Source of the DNA: an uncultured Eubacteriales bacterium
GTDB taxonomy: Bacteria; Bacillota; Clostridia; Christensenellales; Aristaeellaceae
DNA: 38,572 bases
Direction of reading: 5' to 3'
Assembly (NCBI GenBank): GCA_902765305.1
Contig: CACWZI010000052.1
Span: 1 to 38,572 of the forward strand
The notes beneath the pieces are model-generated. The model searched no databases. It was not told where the DNA came from and worked only from the letters and a program-made list of their open reading frames with translations. The position numbers and the translations under genes were made by a program. Shown piece after piece: positions 19,520-26,787 of this stretch (position 1 is the stretch's first letter; each line of letters opens with the position of its first letter).

Positions 19520-19750
19520 CAATTTGCGTCTGAAGGGGGAAATTACTCACTCACCCGTTCTCTTGGATCGTACATAAATCCGGGCAGTATTGGATTTTAT
19601 CTTGTTTCGCAGACTCATCCATTCATGCATGCCTTATATGCGGTTCCTCTTCGTCAGGCCGGGACTTTGCCCGCCGGGTTTATATCCTTCCCCCGACATC
19701 CGGCTTCCTTCAGATTCCGCCTCGCGACGGGGTTGTTGCCCATGCAGGGC
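19520..19750 (-). ncRNA. Probable group II intron domain I remnant
   Basis: Read on the minus strand this stretch resembles the domain I region of bacterial group II introns: GGGCAACAACCCCGTCGCG, then GAGGCGGAATCTGAAGGAAG, GGCAAAGTCCCGGCCTGACG, AACCGCATATAAGGCATGC, then GGATGAGTCTGCGAAACAAG and a run reading AAATCCAATACTGCCC. No reverse transcriptase frame and no domain V were found nearby, so it is a fragment, not an active intron. The identification is from memory of conserved intron sequence and should be tested with a covariance model. Confidence 0.55.
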
Positions 19751-25801: not shown

Positions 25802-26787
25802 TCATTCGTCGCTGGCCTTCAGAGCCAGGCCCAGAGCGATCAGCTTCTGTTCCACCTCTTCCAGCGACTTCTTGCCGAGGTTGCGCACCTTCATCATGTC
25901 CTCCTGATTGCGCTGCACCAGCTCCGCTGCACCAGCTCGGCAACCGTGTTGATGCCGGCGCGCTTCAGGCAGTTGAACGCACGGACCGAGAGATCCAGTT
26001 CTTCGATGGTCATCTCCAGGACCTTGCTCTTGTCGTCGATTTCAGGTTCGTTGTAATCGACGCGGACGACGTTCACCGTAAGGTCGATGAACAGGCGCAT
26101 GTTGTTGGTCAGGATCTGCGCAGCGGAGGCCAGAGCCTCCTTGGGCAGTATGCTGCCGTTGGTCCACACTTCGATGGTCAGCTTGTCATAGTCGGTGACC
26201 TGTCCCACGCGGGTGTCCTCGACGGAATAGCTCACCTTGCGAATGGGGGTGAATATGCTGTCCACCGGAATCACACCGATGGGCATGCCGACAACCTTGT
26301 TGCGCTCCTGTGCGAGCTGCTTGTTCCGCTCCGCGGAGACATAGCCTCTTCCCTTCTCAAGGGTGATCTGGCACTGAAGATGCCCACCCTCGGAAAGCGT
26401 CGCGATGTGCAGTTCGGGGTTGACGATTTCCACCTCGTCGTCCGCCTTGATGTCGCCCGCTGTGATCTCGCAGGGACCGTGCGCATCGATGGAGACAGTC
26501 TTGGGCTGCTCCGTGAAGAGTTTCGCAGAGAGAAGCTTGATGTTCAGGATCAGTTCCGCAACATCTTCCTTCATGCCGGGAACGGTCGAAAACTCGTGCT
26601 GCACGCCTTCGATGCGCACACTGGTCGCGGCCACGCCGGGCAGCGAATTCAGCAATACGCGGCGCAGAGAATTGCCCAGGGTCTGGCCAAAGCCACGCTC
26701 CAGGGGGTTGACGACGAACTTGCCATAGCGGTTGTTCTCGCCGACTTCCACACGTTCAATTTTGGGCTTTTCGATTTGATCGATCAC
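25802..26787 (-). pseudogene. rpoA: RNA polymerase alpha subunit with a frameshifting 14-bp duplication
   Basis: The alpha N-terminal domain, needed for dimerisation and beta/beta' assembly, is intact ([19 protein letters not shown], then [11 protein letters not shown]). Translation from GTG 26787 follows a normal rpoA until [15 protein letters not shown] in the C-terminal domain. It then enters a wrong frame ([10 protein letters not shown]) and stops at 25894. The cause is a perfect tandem duplication of CGCTGCACCAGCTC (plus strand 25911-25924 and 25925-25938). Removing one copy restores [20 protein letters not shown] and a protein of 323 residues ending at 25802, the normal length. As written, the alpha C-terminal domain, which contacts UP elements and activators, is lost. 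Since rpoA is essential, the duplication is either an assembly or read error or a recent or phase-variable mutation. Confidence 0.9.

Follow-up and report, generated by a model that had tools for sequence, protein, structure and literature searches.

A frame-breaking 14-bp tandem duplication in the rpoA gene of an uncultured Eubacteriales draft genome is very likely an assembly error

Introduction

Phase-variable (or contingency) loci carry tandem repeats inside the coding frame that shift this frame, while rpoA, the gene for the α subunit of RNA polymerase, belongs to the core genes and is not known to be phase-variable. The rpoA gene analyzed here is similar to phase-variable loci in having a frame-shifting tandem repeat within its coding frame, but differs from them in that the repeat has two units only and is reduced to one copy in all the relatives compared. 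A second class of related cases is that of spurious pseudogenes, since many apparent bacterial pseudogenes are assembly errors according to Cooley and Wright (2024, PMC11017572). As in such cases, the frameshift affects a gene that must work, is private to one assembly and is absent from close relatives; their work deals with public genomes in general, whereas our case concerns a single metagenome draft with a perfect 14-bp duplication, known from the assembly alone. The third comparison is with sister metagenome-assembled genomes (MAGs) from the rumen, in which private indels with lengths that are not multiples of three similarly interrupt essential genes: rpoA in RUG14431, RUG12338, RUG13544, and RUG11878, and rpsK in RUG14473. 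The rpoA indels of these sisters are deletions, while that studied here is a duplication, like two others in the tuf and pnp genes of the same draft. Our literature searches found no paper on a frameshift of the rpoA C-terminal domain with a tandem duplication, nor, when directed to this class of assembly artefacts and rpoA, any paper about exactly such an event.

The window, namely the whole stretch of 38,572 nucleotides under analysis, is one entire contig (G000:C52) of a draft genome (G000) that comprises 3,875,652 bases in 177 contigs, with a stated completeness of 93.23% and a contamination of 3.47%. Among named genomes, the nearest to it belong to uncultured Clostridiales or Clostridia and were mostly recovered from metagenomes of the rumen or gut of cattle, sheep, roe deer, and goat; for the RUG series, this origin is indicated in parts of two papers (PMC6785717, PMC5830445).

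Results

On the minus strand of the window, rpoA lies between rpsD (27609-27013) and an intact rplQ coding for 169 residues of L17 (25758-25249), which was used as a tblastn query. As assembled, rpoA is a frame-broken ORF of 297 residues (25894-26787), of which residues 1-289 match the family while the final ones do not. Tandem Repeats Finder reports, at 25911-25938, a period of 14 with 2.0 copies and 100% match of the unit CGCTGCACCAGCTC; together with the alignments, this places the first copy in gene orientation at 25925-25938 and the second, frame-shifting copy at 25911-25924. The original prediction described a perfect 14-bp tandem duplication within rpoA, after which α would leave its family sequence beyond AELVQ and stop some ten residues later, and held that deletion of one copy restores the complete C-terminal domain and a normal end 43 bases before rplQ. 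This description is accurate: the unit occurs twice without mismatch, the 297-residue ORF ends with ten foreign residues, and the next frame is open and undecayed from 25910 to 25802, carrying the end of the domain up to a normal stop 43 bases before the ATG of rplQ, with a translation that is the same α end as in the sister locus L033.

The assembled protein clearly belongs to the family by its N-terminal domain and scores, with 417.2 bits against the cut-off of 406 for NCBIfam NF003515.0 and 329.3 bits against 227.8 for TIGR02027.1. Its match to NF003515.0 covers residues 4-289 and positions 3-281 of the 314 in the profile, so that the C-terminal domain is not complete in one frame; the intact rpoA of one sister locus (L033) attains 474.7 bits over positions 3-314. 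A single rpoA was found by searching the 177 contigs of the draft, and no second intact gene that might cover the loss was present among them.

Could the repeat have arisen by chance? This was rejected on the grounds that, when the window was shuffled 200 times with its dinucleotides preserved, a perfect tandem duplication with a unit of 12-60 bases never appeared, while the real window has three rows of this kind, including that in rpoA. Elsewhere in the window, a 44-bp GC-rich unit forms an array of 4.8 copies with 95% match (2133-2345), located behind an ORF ending at 2113 and also flagged in our duplication scan (at 2170-2272), and a piece of group II intron (Rfam group-II-D1D4-3, 61.2 bits) lies on the minus strand at 19538-19731, directly behind a pepF-like gene.

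The 14-bp unit is present in a single copy in all the 44 loci that cross the site among 46 named related loci, all of other species; the remaining two, L058 and L073, stop short of the site and were left out. A second set of 29 relatives' loci, which overlaps the named set, gave the same result in 28 of 28 crossing loci. Sister genomes with the same two-copy form and a compensating frame downstream had been envisaged originally as one outcome that would overturn the idea; neither trait occurs in any of the 44 crossing loci. The duplication is thus private to one assembly, as in short-read assembly errors, and it shows neither of the two traits of phase-variable loci, for copy number is invariant among these relatives of other species and the array is limited to exactly 2.0 copies. 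Besides the 14-bp unit itself, direct reading of the sequence found no microhomology flanking the one-copy form.

The sequence following the duplication has not decayed, because the 123 bases that begin with the second copy and run as far as the stop show 0, 0, and 1 differences from the three nearest sisters (L033, L034, and L032, respectively), against 36, 36, and 39 differences in the 849 bases preceding the duplication, of which 34, 33, and 34 fall in third positions. The lone difference from L032 falls in the stop codon. Behind the duplication, identity with L033 and L034 extends for these 123 bases and then the spacer differs. The nearest sisters are the same on both sides of the duplication, and hence no strain switch is seen at this point.

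Broken rpoA genes are not restricted to the window. Among 28 genomes of the same genus, 26 have a match for rpoA and two have none; five of these matches are frame-broken at five different places, that of G021 runs into a contig edge and the other 20 show no break in the part that matched. Besides the genome of the window, the frame-broken cases are G026, G014, G016, and G010, which, judging by contig numbers and coordinates, we have taken as RUG14431, RUG12338, RUG13544, and RUG11878, respectively, and which have private, frameshifting deletions of 8, 20, 32, and 97 bases in the same order. Of the 15 RUG genomes in the named set that bear five-digit numbers, these four have a broken rpoA frame and a fifth, RUG14473 (L047), has its rpsK split into two frames encompassing residues 1-48 and 65-132. 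In none of the 30 other named loci is the rpoA frame split (L070 and L077 contain only part of the gene). Other frame splits within one contig affect rpoC in three sister genomes (G009, G016, and G018), pnp in G017 and tuf in G009. The deletions in RUG12338, RUG13544, and RUG11878 lie at about residues 54, 73, and 146 of α, which we take to be within the N-terminal assembly domain; given that a frameshift in this domain of the sole rpoA copy would be lethal, these three are almost surely not real.

The case of RUG11878 is particularly informative. Its contig 12 (L076) has the 97-bp deletion while its contig 7 (L073) holds the undeleted stretch; ahead of the deletion the two share 93% identity (389 bases), and behind it they are 100% identical for exactly 99 bases, whereupon contig 7 ends. 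The deletion therefore coincides with a switch between strains at the end of a contig. The largest default k of idba_ud is 100, and the pattern is what would be expected if two strains had been joined at a graph node having an overlap of k-1, with k = 100. Parts of PMC6785717 state that RUG genomes were produced by idba_ud for each sample and by MEGAHIT co-assembly, a statement that covers the sister RUG genomes and not that of the window, and passages of PMC5502489 attribute many misassemblies on complex data to IDBA-UD; those of PMC9784204 contain no mention of IDBA-UD indels.

We additionally scanned 40 stretches of 20 kb plus the window, amounting to 838,572 bases (21.6% of the draft), for perfect two-copy tandem duplications, using units of 8-120 or 10-120 bases depending on the run and, in one run, looser limits for open frames. 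Besides that in rpoA, two such duplications break conserved genes in the portion scanned. One is in tuf, where a 29-bp unit occurs twice (G000:C1:341-400, equivalent to L081:341-400) and the tail of EF-Tu reads IIEAPAS instead of IIED; it was missed by the scan filter and seen by eye. The 25 other rows for the tuf tail end normally, including a second row for the same place and the draft's own second tuf copy, both copies in the draft being located at contig starts. The other is in pnp, coding for PNPase, where a 13-bp unit occurs twice (G000:C10:28257-28283, equivalent to L142:8257-8283) and the 5' and 3' halves of the gene are in different frames; the unit is single in all 11 relatives compared, out of 24 having a match. 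The same draft therefore contains further events of the same class, private among the relatives compared. Counting those we recognized, partly by eye, perfect frameshifting duplications number three in 838,572 bases of the draft versus none in the two sisters, where 615,218 bases were scanned, a small difference that could be due to chance.

The scan also flagged L136:19646 and L138:17973 in the draft, as well as L158:7764 in one sister (G025) and L169:1951, L182:6149, and L184:11379 in another (G008); in the translations, no split conserved protein was recognizable at L138:17973 or at the four flagged sister rows. A telomere-like 14-bp unit, TTAGGTTTTAGGGG, is tandemly duplicated at eight draft positions (L083, L084, L085, L095, two in L135 and two in L136) that are apparently intergenic. 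When the draft was compared with two sisters over 69,685 of its bases, the frameshifting indels of at least 5 bases consisted of the rpoA duplication (in four rows) and a 5-base difference at L094:12973. The draft is not broken everywhere, because the genes around rpoA in the window, which we take to be those of ribosomal proteins under the names used here, are full length by the ORF list and its rpoC is intact.

Discussion

In our evaluation, the second 14-bp copy is very likely an error of short-read metagenome assembly rather than a real feature. The original prediction had offered two readings, assembly error or slippage switch, which fared quite differently: the former has gained support from the single copy seen in every one of the 44 crossing loci, the four indels in rpoA of sister genomes, the duplications in tuf and pnp and the undecayed tail, whereas no positive evidence emerged for the latter, with no relative having two copies, two units only and no flanking microhomology. 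The window event would have the same cause as the indels in the sisters and in the rest of the draft. The most likely route, which we infer from these parallels, would be that a join was made between two graph paths or contig ends having a conserved rpoA stretch in common, with their true overlap of 14 bases left uncollapsed. Counterpoints are that the indels in the sister rpoA genes are deletions, while that in the window is a duplication, that its own site shows no strain switch, that the neighboring genes and rpoC of the draft are unbroken, and that the difference in duplications from the two sisters is small. A 25-mer covering the duplication occurs in 64% of the loci from this genus (89th percentile), and 25-mers that are widely shared are also touched by the rpoA indels of RUG14431 and RUG13544, though not by those of RUG12338 and RUG11878; a general tie between rpoA indels and such 25-mers was consequently rejected, as it would apply to only three of the five.

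The strongest competitor of this explanation is that the sampled strain, or part of its population, truly underwent a recent tandem duplication, thereby losing the second half of the α C-terminal domain through a private and maybe deleterious mutation that would not function as a switch. The perfect structure of the two copies can be counted in its favor, as can the fact that the C-terminal domain alone is hit, leaving the N-terminal assembly domain whole, and the undecayed tail would fit a very recent real mutation too. Loss of the α C-terminal domain is severely harmful, and against a real duplication stand the absence of a second rpoA that could compensate, the single copy in every crossing relative, the two comparable duplications that the draft has in tuf and pnp and the lack of microhomology besides the 14-bp unit. 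We thus regard a real mutation as improbable.

Even less probable, to the extent that we give it hardly any weight, is the slippage-reversible allele, according to which part of the rumen population would alternate between two copies, producing truncated α, and one copy, restoring the contacts with activators and UP elements, in a coarse global switch of transcription. Two perfect 14-bp copies could in principle recombine to one and the frame behind them is intact; nevertheless, copy number among relatives is always one, the two units do not constitute a longer array and the site has no conserved feature apart from the gene itself. Programmed frameshifting that would restore the frame in translation, yielding an α with five extra residues, can practically be dismissed, for the two frames do overlap at the duplication, yet the insert is absent from all 44 crossing relatives and inspection of the sequence by eye found no recognized slippery site.

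In biological terms, a switch of this kind, if true, would represent a novel way of setting RNA polymerase globally. Under the assembly error that we favor, the duplication probably has no biological significance, and the organism itself very probably carries a single 14-bp copy and a full-length α of about 323 residues. What the locus does convey is a caution for this group of bacteria: since five of the 26 rpoA matches in the genus are frame-broken in deposited assemblies, a frameshift that such a draft shows in a core gene needs to be checked in the reads before it is interpreted as a pseudogene or a switch.
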